DNA from: Candidatus Rubrimentiphilum sp.
GTDB lineage: Bacteria; Vulcanimicrobiota; Vulcanimicrobiia; Vulcanimicrobiales; Vulcanimicrobiaceae
DNA length: 64,000 nt
Assembly: GCA_035710515.1 (NCBI GenBank)
Contig: DASTDE010000001.1
Coordinates: 496,001-560,000 of the forward strand
Direction of reading: 5' to 3'
The first letter of the stretch is position 1, and the number at the start of each line of letters is the position of its first letter. Below the pieces are notes generated by a model. It had not been told where the DNA came from. It ran no database searches and saw only the letters and a list, made by a program, of their open reading frames with translations. Shown in pieces: positions 43,455 to 55,060 of this stretch. A program made the translations under genes and the position numbers.

Positions 43455-43809
43455 GGGGCTGAAATAGGTTCGACGGGAAGATCCGCGATCAACGTAAGCA
43501 GGCGGAGTTGCGAGCACTCCTAAAACGATCGCAAGCGTTCTAAACGCAAATAACCAATACGCTCTGGCTGCCTAATCTAGGTTAGCCACCGGACGCAGAG
43601 AGTCGGCCCGAACTACTTTGCACTCCGGTCACGAACTCGGGCTGGCACGATCGACCGACTCTACAATCGTGTAAGAAACAGAGTCTGCTGCGAACGGTAA
43701 TCCACGCTTTGAGGAGTACGTTCGAGTAAGGAAAATTCGAAGCTGAGCCTGGAGAAAGCTTTGGTCCGGCTTTTCGGACTCGGGGGGCAGCACCCCGACA
43801 GCTCCACCA
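43455..43809 (+). ncRNA. ssrA: tmRNA (transfer-messenger RNA)
   Basis: The 5' end GGGGCTGAAATAGGTTCGAC is diagnostic. The GGGGCTG start pairs with CAGCTCC before the terminal ACCA, and CCA is encoded. The tag frame is GCA AAT AAC CAA TAC GCT CTG GCT GCC TAA at 43546-43575, that is ANNQYALAA with an ordinary proteolysis signal. The length is about 355. The T-arm is odd: the stem CGGGG/CCCCG encloses GGCAGCA rather than the expected TTC-containing loop. tmRNA with SmpB rescues stalled ribosomes; smpB is not in the window. Confidence 0.95.
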
Positions 43810-46546: not shown

Positions 46547-48376
46547 ATGGGTGACTGTGAGCGCGGGAAATACGTTGTGATCGCGGCGCTGTCGACTGTA
46601 CTTCTGGCGGCGATATTCGTACAGGTCCCGCCTCCAAGCGGGGCGGACCTGAACGCTGCGCGTTTCGAGGCGCGTCCATGGCGCGCAAGTTTCCGCGGCG
46701 AAAAGATCGTTATTTCAAAGGATCCGTTGCAACAGCCTCGGCTACCATTTAGGCCGCCTCAGGAGAGCTGGACGGCCTCGCATTTTGCGGTGCCGAACGA
46801 GACACTGCACGTTCCCGGCTATTGGTTCGCGTCCTACAATGCCGGCGAATTCGGCGGCGACCTATGGGTGTACAACGAGGACGGTTCGGTAGGCCGGCGA
46901 TTGTTGGGGCAACCAAGCTATGGCTTATTGCCTTATGGCGACGACGTGCTCGCCGAGAGCGGCGCTCGTTCGCCGTTTTTTTCGCCGCCGTGGCGAATCC
47001 ATAGATTCGCTTTGCGTAACGGCGGCTGGCAAGAGATCAGCCACACCGACTTTCCGCTCAATGTTGTTGGACTAGTAAACTTGCGCGGGAAGTTTTATGG
47101 TATCGGGGCCGTTAGTTATAAGACCATCTCCCTGGTTACGCTGTCGCTTGCCGGAGAGATTCAGCGCTTGTGGACGCTTAACGGCGACTTGTCGCTGCGC
47201 AGCATAGCGATGTCGGCGGAGGGCGATCTGGCGATTGGGGCGCGTGGATATGTCATTCGACTACACCCTACGAGCAACGGTTTCGCAGCGACGTGGTACG
47301 CACCCAGCGATTGTGTGCGCTATTCTGCAGACGAAAATGAGGGCTTCGATGCACGCTGCATAGGAATGTTAGGCACGCGCTCATACGAGCACCATTATCA
47401 AGCGCCGCCGTTACGGTATGTGATCTCCCGCGACGGTAATTGGATCTTACCCTGTTGCAATAAAGAAGCGCTGCATTTCGTTGGCGGACGATGGACTACG
47501 ACCACGGACGTCCCGCCCGTTAGCAAGCCATATTTCGAATCGATTGAGGCCGCCGGCGATGACTTGTTCGTGTACGATGCGCGCGGTGCGTGGGTCCGGC
47601 ACCTAGGCGTTTGGTCAAAGGTCGGCTCGGAACTCGACTGTGGGCCCGTTCCGACGGTCGCGCAAACGGTCGCGTGGTGCTTTTTGAGTTCGCCGACAAA
47701 TGCTACCGTCACCGGTTTCAGGGCGGACGGCTCATCGTTGAAGGTCGACGCGGGGCCTTCGGATTTGCTCGCGGCCGGTTTGGAAGATGACGCGTGGTTT
47801 TCGGAGCCGGGCAAACCCGTTTTGGGGCACATTTCTTCGGCGGGAGTTGTTCAAGGATTGACGGTTCAATCGCCGATTGCGTCGCTTTCGCGCGGCTCGA
47901 GCGCGATGTGGTTTACCGAGAGAGACCGTTTGCATTACGGCTACGTTGATGCAAAGGGCGCTGTACACGAGTTTGATCTATTTGCCGATTCGCCAGTTAT
48001 TGCAATTCAAGGTGCGCGGCGAGGTGCGTGGATAGAATACTCGTTTCTTAATAGGCGGCTGTTCGTAAGACACGTTGCCGAAACGCAAAACGGGGTTGAC
48101 AATCAGTATATCGGCGATATTCGCTCGTTTATAGTAGCGCCGGATGGAGCGGCATGGGCTCAAAGCAACAACGCGCAAACGATCGAGCGTTTAAGCGAGG
48201 AAGGCGACGCTACCCTGTATCGCGTCCCGTGCTTCGATCCAAATCTGCGCCTGTTTCACGCGCCGGAGAGCGGCGTGTGGTTCATTAGCAATCTCTCTCA
48301 CTGCAGCGGGCTGATCGATCGCTCGGGAATTCACGTTCGCAGCCTTCCGCTTGTGGATTACGTTGAGTACAAGTGA
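46547..48376 (+). CDS. Exported beta-propeller-like protein
   Basis: 609 residues. A single hydrophobic segment near the N-terminus (YVVIAALSTVLLAAIFVQV) serves as signal peptide or anchor. The remainder has recurring four-strand units with Trp or Tyr closings (GGDLWVYNEDGSVGR, LRSIAMSAEGDLAIGARG, GNWILPCCNKEALHFVGGRW, GAWVRHLGVWSKV, AAGLEDDAWFSEPGK, IVAPDGAAWAQSNNAQ). This pattern fits a beta-propeller of the virginiamycin-lyase/two-component-propeller kind. No catalytic residues can be assigned. Confidence 0.6.
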   Translation: MGDCERGKYVVIAALSTVLLAAIFVQVPPPSGADLNAARFEARPWRASFRGEKIVISKDPLQQPRLPFRPPQESWTASHFAVPNETLHVPGYWFASYNAGEFGGDLWVYNEDGSVGRRLLGQPSYGLLPYGDDVLAESGARSPFFSPPWRIHRFALRNGGWQEISHTDFPLNVVGLVNLRGKFYGIGAVSYKTISLVTLSLAGEIQRLWTLNGDLSLRSIAMSAEGDLAIGARGYVIRLHPTSNGFAATWYAPSDCVRYSADENEGFDARCIGMLGTRSYEHHYQAPPLRYVISRDGNWILPCCNKEALHFVGGRWTTTTDVPPVSKPYFESIEAAGDDLFVYDARGAWVRHLGVWSKVGSELDCGPVPTVAQTVAWCFLSSPTNATVTGFRADGSSLKVDAGPSDLLAAGLEDDAWFSEPGKPVLGHISSAGVVQGLTVQSPIASLSRGSSAMWFTERDRLHYGYVDAKGAVHEFDLFADSPVIAIQGARRGAWIEYSFLNRRLFVRHVAETQNGVDNQYIGDIRSFIVAPDGAAWAQSNNAQTIERLSEEGDATLYRVPCFDPNLRLFHAPESGVWFISNLSHCSGLIDRSGIHVRSLPLVDYVEYK

Positions 48377-48420: not shown

Positions 48421-49200
48421 ATGGTAACGGCTGCGGCAACAAGCAGCGAGGTGGCACGACTTCGCGCTCTTTACCTCGACAACATGGAGCGCATTCTCTG
48501 CAATTCAATCTATCCGGACCCAGGTTTGCAATTCGTGAGTGCGGACGGTTTGGACGACGCTGAAAGCCTTCGTCGTGAAGGACGCGACTGGCCCATCGTC
48601 GCGCATACCATGATCGGACTCCGGCGCATTCATCAACTGCGCAGCTGTGTCGAACAGGTTTTGATCGACGACGTACCCGGTGATCTGATCGAGACGGGGG
48701 TCTGGCGTGGCGGCGCCACCATCATGATGAGTGCGGTTCTCGCAGCCTATGGAGTCTCCGATCGAGTCGTGTGGGTTGCGGATTCGTTTCGCGGCTTGCC
48801 GGCACCCAATCCCGATAAGTATCCACACGACGAGGGACTCAACTTTGTTGATTTTGCCGAGCTGTCCGTTTCCGTAGAAGACGTAAAGGCCAATTTTCGC
48901 AAGTACGAGCTGTTGAACGATCGCGTGAAGTTTGTCGAGGGTTGGTTCTCCAAAACGCTTCATAGTATTGACGCCCGTGAATTCGCAGTGATTCGCCTTG
49001 ACGGTGATCTCTACGAGTCAACGATGGACGCCCTAACTGCTCTGTATCCGCGCCTGTCACCGGGAGGGTTTGCGATCATCGATGACTATGGTGCCGTAGC
49101 CGCTTGCAAAGCAGCGACTGATGACTACCGGGAGACGAACGGCATCGTAGAGCCCGTGCAAACGATTGACTGGACCGGTGTCTATTGGCGCAAGAGGTGA
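48421..49200 (+). CDS. TylF/MycF-type O-methyltransferase
   Basis: 259 residues. LIDDVPGDLIETGVWRGGATIMM, the acidic loop VADSFRGLP, IRLDGDLYESTMDAL and GGFAIIDDYGA match the macrocin O-methyltransferase family, with the metal-binding Asp residues in LDGD and IDDY. These enzymes methylate sugar hydroxyls on glycosides and glycans. It ends where the next, convergent gene ends, and joins two further methyltransferase domains encoded there, so a role in methylating a surface glycan is plausible. Confidence 0.9.
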   Translation: MVTAAATSSEVARLRALYLDNMERILCNSIYPDPGLQFVSADGLDDAESLRREGRDWPIVAHTMIGLRRIHQLRSCVEQVLIDDVPGDLIETGVWRGGATIMMSAVLAAYGVSDRVVWVADSFRGLPAPNPDKYPHDEGLNFVDFAELSVSVEDVKANFRKYELLNDRVKFVEGWFSKTLHSIDAREFAVIRLDGDLYESTMDALTALYPRLSPGGFAIIDDYGAVAACKAATDDYRETNGIVEPVQTIDWTGVYWRKR

Positions 49201-51030
49201 TTACGGCGCGAGTGCGCGCTGCGTCGCTTCGAGATAACCTGTACCGAAACGCCGGTCGGGCTCGAGATGCGCGCCTTCAGCCCATTCGTTCCAAGCGTTG
49301 ACGAAGACGAGGCGATGCGCGGGGTCTGTAAGGCGCGCTTCGCTCACGAGCGCGCGCAACCACTTCTCGTAAGTTTCGGGACTTGCGCCGTGATAGACCG
49401 TCGCGCGATGCGCAAGGCGCGCCGTATTGTCCCAGCCGGCCATCGCGGTCCGATATGTTCGAAAGGGTCGTGGCGGCAGGCCGAGCTGCATTTCGACGGT
49501 GGCGCCATAATCAAAAATTTGTCCGCTGAAATTCGCATCGACCCCTGTCGCGTTGTACGGATCGCCGGAGAGGGCATCACCGTGCGGCGGAAACTCGACT
49601 GCCGCATCGAAGCCGAGCGGCCGTGGATCCTTCAGCCCGAACGTCAATGCGGCCACTAAGTGAAGGTCCGGCACGCCCCAGCGCCGTGCCGCCGCTCGCC
49701 AGCGCGCAGTGGCCGCTTGCGGATCGGGAATGTCGGTTGCTTTGTAGACGAGCAAGACCGGCGCCCCATTGATCCGCAGATAACGGCGGTCCAGAAAGTA
49801 TGGAATCATTTCGTCGATCAGAGCACCGTCGAGTTCGGGACCGTATCGCTGCTCGATCAAGGATGCGCGTTCCGCGCCATCCCATTTACGCGTCCAGTTT
49901 TCGTTCGCCCAGCAAAGGCAAAACGGCAGGTCGGGTTCACCGCTTGTGAGCATCTCGCGAAGCGGGCGATCGAGTAGCGTTTTCGTGCCGAATGAATAGT
50001 AGTAGTAGCAAAAACCAGTGACGCCGTAACTGCGCGCGAGCGCGGCTTGTCGCAAGAGCGTTTCCGGGAGGCGAAGATCATAAAATCCTAAGCGTTCCGG
50101 AACGTGTGGTTGATAGTGGTCCGAATACTGTTTGCGGCCGCGCGCGACTTTGGTCCACTCCGTGAAGCCTTCGCCCCACCAGCGATCGTTTTCCGGGATG
50201 GGGTGAAACTGCGGAAGGTAGAAGGCGAAGAGCTTCACGTCCTCGGCGCGTTGCGGTTTCCCGTTCTGCGCGGCCGGTGCGCCGGCACGCCATGAGCGCC
50301 GGCGGATATGATCGGCGAGCGCGAAATCTTGCGCGCGTTCGTTACCGTCGCCGCGTTCGATAACGACGAAGCCTTCGTGTACCGCCATCCTACGAATCAG
50401 TGTGCGCGACGTGCCCGTCGCGGCAACCAAATCGTCGACCAGGAGTTTGAGGGACTCTTCGCCGGCCCAAAAGTTCTTGGGATCTTGAAATTCCGGCCAG
50501 TGCTCCCAGGCCCAGTCTTCGATGATATAGAGCCCGCCCGCCGGTAACAGCGGAAAGAGCGTCTCGAAACTCGCGCGTGTCGGCGCGTACAGGTGAGACC
50601 CATCGTCGATGACCAGGTCAACCTTGCCCCCGAGATCCTCGTCAACGATTTTTAGCAAGGTCGCGCGGTCAGCTTGGTTGACGCCCCAACGCGTGACGAT
50701 CCGTTCGTGCAGTTTGCGGTCGTCCAGGTAGCGGCGGAAATACGGGCTGTCACCGCGCTCCAACAGGTCGATCGCGACCAGCTTTTCAGGACGGAGCGCT
50801 TCATACCAAAGCGCCGTGCTGCCGCCATCCCAAATCCCAATCTCGAACACGCGTTGCGGACGAAAGTCCGTCGAGGACCAAAAGCGGCTAAACTGCTCTA
50901 AGAGTTGACGATTCTTATAGAGCGCAAAATCGGCATCGTGGACCTGCGGGCTGGCGCCCGGCGTCTCGAAGCGAAAGATCAAATCGCCCAGCAATGCGCG
51001 ATCGGATTCCCAGGTTAGGAACTCGAACAA
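49201..51030 (-). CDS. Fusion of a CmcI-like methyltransferase and a WbsX glycosyltransferase-like domain
   Basis: 609 residues. Residues 1-240 are a class I SAM methyltransferase (FEIGIWDGGSTALWY, LVAIDLLE, DLVIDDGSHLY, LYIIEDWAWEHW), similar to cephalosporin hydroxylase/rhamnosyl O-methyltransferase types. Residues 262-609 are a WbsX domain, with FYLPQFHPIPENDRWWGEGF, CYYYYSF, WANENWTRKWD and VNAWNEWAEGAHLEPD intact. WbsX domains occur in O-antigen and other polysaccharide clusters and resemble GH99 mannosidases. It overlaps the big radical SAM fusion by 16 bases. Confidence 0.85.
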   Translation of the reverse strand: MFEFLTWESDRALLGDLIFRFETPGASPQVHDADFALYKNRQLLEQFSRFWSSTDFRPQRVFEIGIWDGGSTALWYEALRPEKLVAIDLLERGDSPYFRRYLDDRKLHERIVTRWGVNQADRATLLKIVDEDLGGKVDLVIDDGSHLYAPTRASFETLFPLLPAGGLYIIEDWAWEHWPEFQDPKNFWAGEESLKLLVDDLVAATGTSRTLIRRMAVHEGFVVIERGDGNERAQDFALADHIRRRSWRAGAPAAQNGKPQRAEDVKLFAFYLPQFHPIPENDRWWGEGFTEWTKVARGRKQYSDHYQPHVPERLGFYDLRLPETLLRQAALARSYGVTGFCYYYYSFGTKTLLDRPLREMLTSGEPDLPFCLCWANENWTRKWDGAERASLIEQRYGPELDGALIDEMIPYFLDRRYLRINGAPVLLVYKATDIPDPQAATARWRAAARRWGVPDLHLVAALTFGLKDPRPLGFDAAVEFPPHGDALSGDPYNATGVDANFSGQIFDYGATVEMQLGLPPRPFRTYRTAMAGWDNTARLAHRATVYHGASPETYEKWLRALVSEARLTDPAHRLVFVNAWNEWAEGAHLEPDRRFGTGYLEATQRALAP

Positions 51031-54000
51031 TCGGCCTCCGCGCGGGTGACGACGACAGGTGTGAGATCGCGGAAGGTCGCGTCCGGGGTGCGGTGTATGA
51101 CCGCGATGCGATACGAACCGGCGGGAACGTCGTCGAGCGGCAGCCGCGCTTCAAAACCGCAGGCTAAGGGATAGCCGGGATTCTGCGCCGCGACGTGTTC
51201 GCACGAGAACCGCTTATGAATGGGAAAGACTCGGTCCCCTTTCCCGTCGCAGGACTCCAGCGCGATGAAGAGATCGACGAGCTCGGGAGGCGTGGCGCCG
51301 TCGTGAGCCCAGCCCACGAGGTGTGTGTCAGCATTGCGCAGCGCAACCGGTTCCATGACAGTGTGAAGCCTAGCGCCGCCGATGCCGTCGAGGTAGTCGA
51401 TCGCTGCTTTTCCGCCTGACGCAGGCAAGTGACGGCTCAAGACGCGCACCCATTGTGCAACGCCGTTCTGTTGCTGATCGGTCTGTTCAAGGGAGGCTTC
51501 GATCGCAGCTTGTAACCGGCCGCGGCTGTGTTCGTGCGACGCCATGACTTGCTCTATCTCCTCAACCGTATGGGTGACATCGGCGCCGTTGTTGCCGGCG
51601 AGTGCATCCCGCAACCGCCGCACGAGCACGAGCCCGCTTAGCGGGCCGCGCGTAGCGCGCCGTGTTGCTTCGAGCGCGGCGCGATCGGTGCGCTCGTCCG
51701 GCTCGAGATATGCACCGTTCGACCAATCATTCCAGGAGTCGAGAACGACGACGTGATCGCCATGCTTGCGCGCCGCGCCAATTGCCGCATGCAGCCAATG
51801 TTCGTACGCTCCTAACGCCTCGGAGTCGCTTCCGTTGCGATCGCAGCGGACTGTGTGAATCGTTCGATAGGCGCCCCGGGCTGCTGTAAGCGACGATGCG
51901 ATTCCCGCCACGCCGTTCTGTACGGGCGGCGGCTCCAAGAACGAATCGAACCCGTAGTCTTCAGGGACGCTGTCCGAGCCAACGTTCATGGTGCAAAGGT
52001 GAAGGTCGCCCAATCCCGTGCGCTGGGCTTCCTTTCGCCAGGCTATGGCAGTCGCGCGCGGTTGGGCCAAGCGCTCGATGTGGGCGACGAAGATCGGTAG
52101 GCGGTTTTCGATTCGCAAGTAGCGGGAATCCGCAAAGGCCGGCGCGAGATTCTCGAAAATCAGCATGGCAGCTTCCACGTCGACCGGTTGGGACGATTCG
52201 ATTTCAAGCATCAGTGCGAACGGGAAATGGGGCCGCCCACTCGACAGCATGGCTCGCAGCGGGGCGTCCCAGTGCGGTCCCCGATCCCAAAAATAGCGAT
52301 AAACGAACGCGTCGATGCCGTGCCGAGCCGCGAGTTCAGCTTGCGCCTCGCGAGTTTCGGCGACGCGGGGATCCGCGAAGCCGAGTGCGGTTGGAAGCGG
52401 TCGCGGCGGATCCGAGTCCACGAGATGTATCCACGCACTTTCGCCCGGGTCTCCGTTCTCGGCGGCATAGCAACGCGGATCGTACAGCGCGATGAGCGAA
52501 ACATCGCGGGCGACTTTGGGAGCAGCCGGAGTTGTTGAGACTACGATCCCGGGCTTACGAAGCACGGCCAGCTCTTGGCCGAAATTCGGCGACTCGAAGG
52601 GAAGCGCGAGCACTTCCAAGCCTGCGGCTTCAATCTCACGACGAACGACATCGGCCGTAGCGAAGGTGACGCCATAGTGCGGTTCGTTGCCGTACTGCGA
52701 CGTCAGGGAAGCGAAGCCGAAACCGTCTTCCCCAACGCGGCGGACGACCTTATCTTTTAATTCGGCAGAGTAGTCGCCGTAATGCGCCATCTCGCCGGCC
52801 AGCCACAGCGGCAAACGCCGTTCCGAAAGATAGGTGAATGCGGCGACGCCGCCTGGGCGCAACATGCGGGCCCAGGCTCTCAACGACCGCCGCCAGTGAT
52901 CGAGCGTCGTGTGCGTCAGCAGTGAGAAGCAGACGATCGCATCGAGGTCTACCGGTAGCGCGTCCTCTTCGGGCCGCCAGCCCATTATGACCGGCAGCGC
53001 GCCCAACTCGTCGGCGCAGAATTGAACGGCCCCAGGATCGATGTCGCATGCATACACGGCGGCATCCGGAAGCGCCGCCCGCAAGGCACGCGTGATCCGG
53101 CCGTAGTGCGAGGCGACGTCGGCGACTGCGCGACTGTTCACAAGTCCGTCGTGACCGTTCTCGCGCAACACGGTGTCGATGTCCACAACGGCCTGGACGG
53201 CGGAACTAAAATACAATCCTGTTCCGTACTGTTCGAAGCCCGGAAAGATGTAGTCCATATCCGAAACGCTGCGGTTTACTCGCGTCAGGATTTCGTCGGC
53301 TGCGAGAGCAGTATCGGGACCGGTGGGAGTGGTGTGGAGTCGAGCCTCCGTCCATTCTATGCCCGCCGAGCGTATAAGCGCGAAGAGCTCGGGAATGGCT
53401 TCGCGCATGTTTTCATTCCGGCTCGCATCCAAATCATTCGTGAACTTCATAAAGTTTTCAAACGCCGTTGGGTCGAACGCGTCGTTTGTTGAGCTAAGTG
53501 CATCTCGGAACGTACGTACGACGTCTACATTGTGCGGTTTGCACTCGCTGTCGAGATAGTTCTGCAAACGCCGCTCGGCGATGCGGCGAACGCTTGGAGG
53601 CAGGCACGTAGGGGCGAGCCACAGTGGTTCGTTCGCAATATTGAACCATAAGCGAGTGTCGCGTTCGTCGAGAACACGAAAGAGCCTGACGAGATCAAGC
53701 GCGTTGTAATTTTGTAACGTCGGAACGACGCCCAGGTTCACGCCCGGGATCTCACGCAAAACATCCAGCGTAGCGAGCAGTCGCGACCAGCTGGCGCCGT
53801 TGCGCATGTACTCGTACACCTTACCGTAGGCGTCCACGCTAACCGTCAGATTGAAGCCGCGAAAGTTCGGCGCGAGCTCGGCGAGCATCGGATGATCTTG
53901 CTGCCCGTTCGTGCACAGCGCGGCGTACGTGCGCTTCGAAGCTCCGCGCTCGACGAGGGACGTTAGTAACTGCCAGACGCTTGGAATAAGGAACGGTTCG

Positions 54001-54596
54001 CCACCCATCACCGTGAGAAACACGTCGGTCTCGGCGGCAGACTTCGCGAGCATATCCGCTAACGCGTCTGTATTCTTATACCATGCCGAACCATTTATGC
54101 GGATCGGGCGGGACACGTCCGCTCCGCCGACCCATGCTGAATGGATGGGGTCGGCAGCAATGCGCGTGCTCAGGAAGCCGGAGCAGCTGCGGCACTTTAA
54201 ACTGCAAACGCTGCCCATTTCTAAGACAAAATGAGTGGGCGGGGAATCCAGCTTGTATCCGGTAGCCGCGCCGACTTCGGGCAATTTCTCGAGTTGGTAG
54301 GCCGCGTGATCGCGGTAACCGGCGTTCATTAAGAGACGCCGGCTCATGCCGCCTTCCGACTCGCGTTTCCAGCAGGCGCCGCACGCCTCCGGCCTCTCGC
54401 CCGCCGCCATCGCGGCGCGAACGTTGACGATTTCGGGCGCATTCCACAAACTTTCGAGGGAATCACGCCCGATGTGGCCGACGCCACCGTCCACAGTCAT
54501 CGGTTCATGAATTTCGCAGCAAAAAGTTACTGCGCCGTCGGGTTGGACGACAAAATTGGTCCAGGGGATGATGCAGACGGTGTTGGACAATCCCAC
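51015..54596 (-). CDS. Radical SAM-methyltransferase-WbsX multidomain fusion
   Basis: 1193 residues from a GTG start. Residues 1-80 form a SPASM/twitch-like cysteine region (C8, C26, C27, C72, C75) placed N-terminally. The radical SAM core (about 120-330) has C131, C135 and C138 (CSLKCRSC) and MGGEPF. About 440-690 is a class I methyltransferase (YACDIDPG, CFSLLTHTTLDHW, LRPGGVAAFTYL). About 697-985 is a WbsX-like domain whose closing motif is WNDWSNG instead of WNEWAEG. A helical linker and a C-terminal beta-sandwich-like domain follow (about 1075-1185). The next gene overlaps by 16 bases and repeats the methyltransferase-WbsX pairing. No such full architecture is known to me; substrate unknown, probably a surface glycan. 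Confidence 0.8.
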   Translation of the reverse strand: MGLSNTVCIIPWTNFVVQPDGAVTFCCEIHEPMTVDGGVGHIGRDSLESLWNAPEIVNVRAAMAAGERPEACGACWKRESEGGMSRRLLMNAGYRDHAAYQLEKLPEVGAATGYKLDSPPTHFVLEMGSVCSLKCRSCSGFLSTRIAADPIHSAWVGGADVSRPIRINGSAWYKNTDALADMLAKSAAETDVFLTVMGGEPFLIPSVWQLLTSLVERGASKRTYAALCTNGQQDHPMLAELAPNFRGFNLTVSVDAYGKVYEYMRNGASWSRLLATLDVLREIPGVNLGVVPTLQNYNALDLVRLFRVLDERDTRLWFNIANEPLWLAPTCLPPSVRRIAERRLQNYLDSECKPHNVDVVRTFRDALSSTNDAFDPTAFENFMKFTNDLDASRNENMREAIPELFALIRSAGIEWTEARLHTTPTGPDTALAADEILTRVNRSVSDMDYIFPGFEQYGTGLYFSSAVQAVVDIDTVLRENGHDGLVNSRAVADVASHYGRITRALRAALPDAAVYACDIDPGAVQFCADELGALPVIMGWRPEEDALPVDLDAIVCFSLLTHTTLDHWRRSLRAWARMLRPGGVAAFTYLSERRLPLWLAGEMAHYGDYSAELKDKVVRRVGEDGFGFASLTSQYGNEPHYGVTFATADVVRREIEAAGLEVLALPFESPNFGQELAVLRKPGIVVSTTPAAPKVARDVSLIALYDPRCYAAENGDPGESAWIHLVDSDPPRPLPTALGFADPRVAETREAQAELAARHGIDAFVYRYFWDRGPHWDAPLRAMLSSGRPHFPFALMLEIESSQPVDVEAAMLIFENLAPAFADSRYLRIENRLPIFVAHIERLAQPRATAIAWRKEAQRTGLGDLHLCTMNVGSDSVPEDYGFDSFLEPPPVQNGVAGIASSLTAARGAYRTIHTVRCDRNGSDSEALGAYEHWLHAAIGAARKHGDHVVVLDSWNDWSNGAYLEPDERTDRAALEATRRATRGPLSGLVLVRRLRDALAGNNGADVTHTVEEIEQVMASHEHSRGRLQAAIEASLEQTDQQQNGVAQWVRVLSRHLPASGGKAAIDYLDGIGGARLHTVMEPVALRNADTHLVGWAHDGATPPELVDLFIALESCDGKGDRVFPIHKRFSCEHVAAQNPGYPLACGFEARLPLDDVPAGSYRIAVIHRTPDATFRDLTPVVVTRAEADCSSS

Positions 54597-54697: not shown

Positions 54698-55060
54698 CTA
54701 CCAGCTCAGTCCGCCGTTCGAGTGCTCCCTGATTGTCTTGTCGATATCGCCTGAGCTCTTGACATTGTTGTCGCGTAAGTGCCAAATTCTGCCGCTGTTT
54801 TGGCAGTTGCTGTTCTTTCGAGCTTCGCCTTTCAGGCTCTTGATAAAATTGCCGCCGCTGGATTTGTACCACGTTTCCGTGCTCTGTGGCTTAAGGCAGA
54901 GCGTCTTTGCGTTCTTTCCGCTACCGGCTTCATAGAACGTTATCCAGACGCTGAAGCCTGTCGGATTATGAAAGGTAAAGTTTTGTGCTGCAACCGCTGG
55001 AAGTATTAAGGAAATGGTTAGAATAGCCAGCACACACACCGCAACAAGAGACCTTCGCAT
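54698..55060 (-). CDS. Small secreted protein
   Basis: 120 residues with a strong GGAGG six bases before the ATG and a signal peptide ending AVAA. The mature part (about 95 residues) is beta-rich and basic and has two cysteines (KTLCLKPQ, KNSNCQNSG) that may pair. FHNPTGFSVWITFYEAGSG resembles small beta-sandwich secreted proteins, but no family is recognised. It lies 101 bases upstream of the radical SAM fusion on the same strand and may share its transcript. Confidence 0.7.
   Translation of the reverse strand: MRRSLVAVCVLAILTISLILPAVAAQNFTFHNPTGFSVWITFYEAGSGKNAKTLCLKPQSTETWYKSSGGNFIKSLKGEARKNSNCQNSGRIWHLRDNNVKSSGDIDKTIREHSNGGLSW

Follow-up and report, generated by a model that had tools for sequence, protein, structure and literature searches.

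The stretch analysed here, a window of 64,000 nucleotides from Candidatus Rubrimentiphilum sp. (contig DASTDE010000001.1, positions 496,001 to 560,000), carries on its reverse strand two large overlapping genes that form one conserved, probably translationally coupled module: gene 1 (51015-54596; 1193 residues, GTG start) joins a radical S-adenosylmethionine (SAM) enzyme with an N-terminal twitch region (N-twitch) to a methyltransferase, a degenerate WbsX domain resembling glycoside hydrolase family 99 (GH99) and a C-terminal region, while gene 2 (49201-51030; 609 residues, TTG start) joins a methyltransferase of the Methyltransf_24 type (MT24) to an intact WbsX domain. With a probability somewhat better than even, the two proteins constitute a cytoplasmic module tailoring an oligo- or polysaccharide that contains deoxysugars and is perhaps rich in rhamnose; that the proteins act jointly and in the cytoplasm, that their substrate is a glycan and that the degenerate domain serves as a scaffold is what we infer from the evidence given below. 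A sequence-only reading had proposed a glycan-tailoring system of three genes, the third being a convergent TylF-type methyltransferase; all three open reading frames (ORFs) were confirmed in the window by an ORF check, and the domain composition assigned to them is upheld by Pfam and NCBIfam.

The gene pair and its conservation

Gene 1 lies upstream of gene 2, whose start is located 16 bases inside the end of gene 1 (overlap 51015-51030, reverse strand). The overlap, from which coupling of the two large genes had already been proposed, is real and has the identical length in two other genomes, where the gene order is also the same; across the three genomes the start codons of gene 2 are TTG, GTG and TTG, preceded by purine-rich sequence, and scans for promoters and terminators gave matches at chance level only. 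Since the overlap has been retained at the divergence observed among the orthologues (identities: gene 1, 48-49%; gene 2, 68-72%), translational coupling is probable.

The host genome has a size of 2.54 Mb at 96% completeness, and its relatives include drafts of Candidatus Eremiobacterota. The NCBIfam family NF033640 ("twitch domain-containing radical SAM"; curated cut-off, 170 bits) is found above its cut-off in four of the 149 genomes of the phylum; three of these four proteins lie inside a frame of 1193-1241 residues, and exactly those three genomes have an intact WbsX partner adjoining that frame. The two genomes other than the host (contigs JAQBPK010000259.1 and JAFAMK010000330.1) come from a different genus of the host's family, and the gene pair, its order and the 16-base overlap are shared by three genomes from two genera; none of the six congeners searched has the pair. 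A first scan of the genome contigs with a single protein query gave no match, and an alignment-based scan, which relies on two short peptide patterns and may let distant fusions escape, recovered two orthologues and one stand-alone radical SAM protein. No relative of the whole 1193-residue protein was found in viral contigs, plasmids and phages, where the matches were to single domains only. Within the limits of these scans the radical SAM fusion pair has been seen in three genomes only, each of its domains belonging to a known family, and the rarity claimed for the fusion is borne out; as to whether the homologues occur as separate genes without co-occurrence, the outcome favours a module, within one bacterial family.

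The MT24 domain and the intact WbsX barrel of gene 2

The MT24 domain (50341-51030, reverse strand; PF13578, Methyltransf_24, 47.8 bits) matches in sequence the structures 3ssm (E 7.1e-14) and 8ia9 (E 1.5e-10) of the sugar O-methyltransferases MycE and SpnK, and MycE also occupies ranks 1 and 2 of a Foldseek search; both the fold and the metal-binding and catalytic motifs of the family (DDGSH...ED) are present, with DDGSH at residues 142-146 and IED at 170-172. The domain is related to MycE and SpnK.

The second part of gene 2 (49216-50238, reverse strand) is an intact WbsX domain (PF14307, 423 bits), a family labelled as a glycosyltransferase in Pfam. When nine WbsX domains are combined into a search profile, the GH99 enzyme OpGH99A (5ngw) is detected with E 9.6e-4 and BxGH99 more weakly, the WNEWAEG of the profile being aligned with NEWHEG of the GH99 enzymes. 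In the structure model predicted for gene 2 (mean pLDDT of 71, with higher values over most of the barrel), the barrel superposes on 5ngw with Z 22.6 over 289 residues and an rmsd of 3.2; GH99 enzymes as a group score Z 19-22.6 (MANEA and BxGH99 approximately 20), the related GH71 enzymes 17-18 and other barrels approximately 13. The catalytic glutamates of GH99 sit in EW[H/G]E (PMC11025385), and the corresponding EWAE of gene 2 (residues 582-585; 49276-49287) is retained in all three orthologues. On the strength of the model, the barrel is assigned the GH99 endo-mannosidase fold with its EWxE pair retained, and from fold and pair together it is predicted to be catalytically intact. The WbsX calls of the sequence-only reading stand with two corrections, namely that WbsX has the GH99 fold and that the second WbsX domain, in gene 1, is degenerate.

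The radical SAM and methyltransferase parts of gene 1

The N-terminal cysteine region of gene 1 (residues 1-80; 54357-54596, reverse strand) is matched by the Pfam SPASM family (PF13186, 8.8e-10) over residues 8-76, and is followed by the radical SAM core (residues 120-325; 53622-54239, reverse strand), which bears CxxxCxxC at 131-138 (C131, C135 and C138; 54183-54206) and GGEP at 198-201, both kept in all three orthologues. The Pfam Radical_SAM family alone stays below threshold (23.9 vs 29.5 bits), and NF033640 matches residues 4-407 with 262.8 bits, covering positions 1-397 of the 398 of the profile. All cluster cysteines, including C8, C26, C27, C72 and C75, are invariant in six diverse relatives. 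Judged by this full-length match and by its motifs, the radical SAM part is a member of the NF033640 N-terminal-twitch subfamily, and the match together with the invariant cysteines makes the SPASM-like region, correctly recognised from the sequence, a hallmark of that known subfamily.

Viral contigs of IMG/VR are rich in radical SAM genes of the N-twitch type: 80 loci contain 319 radical SAM-like ORFs, approximately four in each locus and frequently several in a group, and neither WbsX nor the two methyltransferase domains were found near them in these 80 loci. A stand-alone N-twitch radical SAM protein of 548 residues (L107:6944-8590, reverse strand) has approximately 100 extra residues inserted between its cysteine motif and GGEP.

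Most characterised twitch/SPASM radical SAM enzymes take part in the maturation of peptides (e.g. PMC5682303), and the core might accordingly modify a ribosomally made peptide or protein that the sugar domains would then decorate. In favour of this reading, gene 1 is immediately preceded on its own strand by a secreted-looking ORF of 120 residues (54698-55060) that carries an apparent signal peptide and has no family match; however, neither of the other two genomes has an equivalent ORF ahead of the pair, and a conserved small peptide gene was rejected as a candidate, nothing convincing being shared by the short ORFs that precede the pair in the three genomes. The best NCBIfam match of the enzyme, moreover, is NF033640 and not a peptide-maturation family, and a peptide substrate is considered very improbable.

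The class I methyltransferase domain (residues 463-690; 52527-53210, reverse strand; PF08242/PF13649) is matched by Methyltransf_12/25 over approximately residues 491-584 and shows the highest conservation within gene 1 (62-70% identity among the three orthologues); it has no informative relative of known structure, and its activity as a methyltransferase is presumed. C-methylation by the radical SAM enzyme had been suggested as a possible reaction; the cobalamin-dependent type is unlikely, because no B12-binding domain is found among the Pfam matches of the whole protein, and this part of the suggestion is left unsupported. The C-terminal region (residues 984-1193; 51018-51647, reverse strand) is the least conserved part of the protein (36-43% identity) and has no Pfam match.

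The degenerate WbsX domain of gene 1

The WbsX domain of gene 1 (residues 698-983; 51648-52505, reverse strand) is matched by PF14307 in two stretches, the better one at 734-893, with 109.9 bits in total. At the position of the catalytic EWxE the three orthologues have DWSN, DWVG and DWTH; YLPQxH, GFTEW and WANExWT are missing from all three, and the domain lacks the combination of NEWxEG and WANExWT that marks the active form of PF14307, whereas the paired WbsX proteins of the plasmid clusters examined (see below) retain NEWxEG. In a tree the degenerate copies form a single clade on a very long stem, without a resolved sister group that would speak for an origin by tandem duplication. The domain itself is conserved (47-61% identity among the three orthologues). 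With its motifs lost in all three genomes, it is, as far as sequence motifs can tell, a conserved pseudo-GH99 domain without the catalytic pair.

Glycan links and proposed function

Unfused relatives of the domains of gene 2 occur in O-antigen-type clusters that also carry dTDP-rhamnose genes. On a plasmid of Enterobacter roggenkampii, adjoining genes for a class I methyltransferase and a WbsX protein match residues 61-607 of gene 2 at 43% identity, in a cluster with rfbC, an ABC exporter, a rhamnan-synthesis F protein (RgpF) and a GT2 glycosyltransferase; a similar match is present on a Klebsiella pneumoniae plasmid. In Ruegeria a methyltransferase gene and two WbsX genes lie beside rfbABCD, and in Methyloprofundus a PIG-L-GT2-WbsX-RgpF protein is encoded near a lipopolysaccharide ABC exporter and a radical SAM gene, the latter falling outside the N-twitch family. 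Among 395 sampled genomes of another phylum only two N-twitch radical SAM proteins were above the cut-off, one beside sulfotransferase and MT24 genes and the other beside a methyltransferase and a glycosyltransferase mosaic; these neighbourhoods also speak for a glycan. The glycan direction of the sequence-only reading is borne out by the likeness of MT24 to MycE/SpnK and by these methyltransferase and WbsX neighbours in rhamnose-type O-antigen clusters on plasmids. The Enterobacter locus (L088:12137-20688, forward strand, of pMCR10_090065) is an O-antigen-like cluster that includes two WbsX genes and lies between insertion sequence (IS) elements.

In the mechanism proposed, the MT24 domain of gene 2 would carry out a metal-dependent O-methylation of a sugar hydroxyl, and its GH99-fold barrel would bind a glycan and probably cleave or transfer it; the degenerate domain of gene 1 would probably be a glycan-binding scaffold that holds the chain, the radical SAM core could abstract a hydrogen from a sugar carbon, leading by analogy to epimerisation or oxidation, and the methyltransferase of gene 1 might add a second methyl group, the methyltransferases thus decorating or capping the chain. 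The nearest precedent is found in the radical SAM enzymes of aminoglycoside pathways, which act on sugars by epimerisation or oxidation. More specifically, and only as a tentative proposal well short of even probability, the dead GH99-like domain may present a bound sugar chain to the radical SAM and methyltransferase domains of the same polypeptide, the radical reaction then acting on a glycan already assembled, instead of a free sugar nucleotide, while the partner protein methylates and cleaves or transfers the same chain.

Several observations weigh against glycan tailoring by the pair. The fourth NF033640 protein of the phylum is stand-alone and not beside recognisable glycan genes; motif I of the gene 1 methyltransferase is unusual (ADxASHYGR); the predicted structure of gene 1 (pLDDT 43.8) is too poor for use; and a Pfam scan of the window detected neither glycosyltransferase nor exporter nor sugar-nucleotide genes beside the pair, so that the flanking polysaccharide cluster that had been expected is not seen in the window. 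Finally, in one of the other two genomes (RYN_345, L051) the pair is preceded, at a distance of approximately 3 kb and on the opposite strand, by the starts of two non-ribosomal peptide synthetase (NRPS) genes. This last observation would suit a module acting on the sugar of a glycosylated natural product, such as a non-ribosomal peptide, with a small glycoside and not a surface polymer as substrate. Both MT24 and TylF indeed have relatives of solved structure, and MycE/SpnK- and TylF-type enzymes act on macrolide, spinosyn and aminocoumarin sugars. The NRPS genes, however, are not conserved, there being none near the pair in the window and a helicase in L050; GH99 enzymes act on oligo- and polysaccharides, and the WbsX relatives are found in O-antigen-type clusters. 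A natural-product substrate is therefore judged unlikely, and tailoring of a longer glycan is preferred. As a separate observation, one RYN_345 NRPS (L051:12496-16503, forward strand) contains between its adenylation and carrier domains a stretch (residues 819-1131) resembling N-acetyl-sugar amidotransferases (WbuX, TIGR03573, below cut-off).

Genomic setting and neighbouring genes

A tmRNA gene is located at 43455-43809 of the window on the forward strand (Rfam, 119.7 bits; missed by ARAGORN). It is collinear, together with uvrC and two further genes, in the five congeners examined, and in all five collinearity with the window stops right after it. Genes for tmRNA are common integration sites, and a lineage-specific insertion or rearrangement beside this one, within a variable region, is likely; a search around the stretch for att-like repeats, including a copy of the tmRNA 3' end, found none, and no integrase was seen among the window proteins scanned. 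This position, the patchy distribution (three genomes out of the 149 in the phylum, and not one of six congeners) and the degeneration of one barrel could also be accounted for by a mobile mosaic locus for decoration whose parts are shuffled and partly decaying, the dead WbsX domain being then a lost function and not a scaffold. Such decay is hardly to be expected of the pair, given that the frames are full-length, the radical SAM and gene 2 active-site motifs are retained and the 16-base overlap is identical at approximately 50-70% identity, all of which points to purifying selection; the dead domain is itself under the conservation noted above, and this explanation is held to be quite improbable.

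The TylF-type O-methyltransferase (48421-49200, forward strand; 259 residues; PF05711, 325 bits) has 4cdz, NovP and MycF as its closest solved structures. Its end at 49200 abuts the stop of gene 2 at 49201 base to base; lying stop-to-stop on the opposite strand, it is outside the transcription unit of genes 1 and 2. In neither of the other two genomes was a TylF gene found close to the pair; one of them (G122) is 74% complete with its contig ending 113 bases past gene 2, and the other (G125) has only a weak match on another contig. As a convergent gene of non-conserved adjacency, TylF was rejected as the third member of the system that it had been taken for. A second TylF of the host (56% identical) is encoded on another contig with RmlA-, RmlB- and RmlC-like genes, and the same contig carries GT2, DegT aminotransferase and sulfotransferase genes; this gene set of the host counts in favour of the glycan reading. 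Elsewhere in the window, a protein of 609 residues (46547-48376, forward strand) resembles in part virginiamycin B lyase (beta-propeller), with a score under the Pfam cut-off.

Comparison with known systems

The papers searched contained nothing on the function of WbsX, PF14307 or NF033640, and, to our knowledge, hardly any radical SAM enzyme that works on an assembled glycan has been described. The presence of N-twitch radical SAM, methyltransferase and GH99-like domains in one conserved polypeptide provides a concrete substrate hypothesis for the NF033640 subfamily, within a reach limited by the narrow distribution of the pair (three genomes, one family); it also suggests that at least some proteins named "glycosyltransferase WbsX" are GH99-fold glycan-processing enzymes, and that there is a catalytically dead WbsX class kept for another role.

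Compared to other NF033640 members (the Bacteroidota-type G149 and G346, G134 of the phylum and those of viral contigs), which are devoid of methyltransferase and WbsX parts, gene 1 shares the full-length match and all cluster cysteines. Among the WbsX proteins of O-antigen and rhamnan type (PF14307, "glycoside hydrolase family 99-like domain"), the barrel of gene 2 is 44-48% identical to the plasmid copies of Ruegeria, Azospirillum and Methyloprofundus, and a methyltransferase gene beside a WbsX gene recurs in the plasmid clusters, like the fusion in gene 2; WbsX mosaics such as that of Methyloprofundus exist elsewhere, but a radical SAM fusion was not seen there, and the partners examined keep the NEWxEG that the domain of gene 1 has lost. 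With the GH99 endo-alpha-1,2-mannosidases and mannanases (MANEA, BxGH99), gene 2 is predicted to share the fold and the catalytic EWxE, the likeness being one of fold and motif at only 12-15% identity and in a protein fused to a methyltransferase, whereas in gene 1 the catalytic pair is lost. Finally, MT24 shares with MycE and SpnK the fold, DDGSH and IED, but it alone is fused to a GH99-fold barrel.

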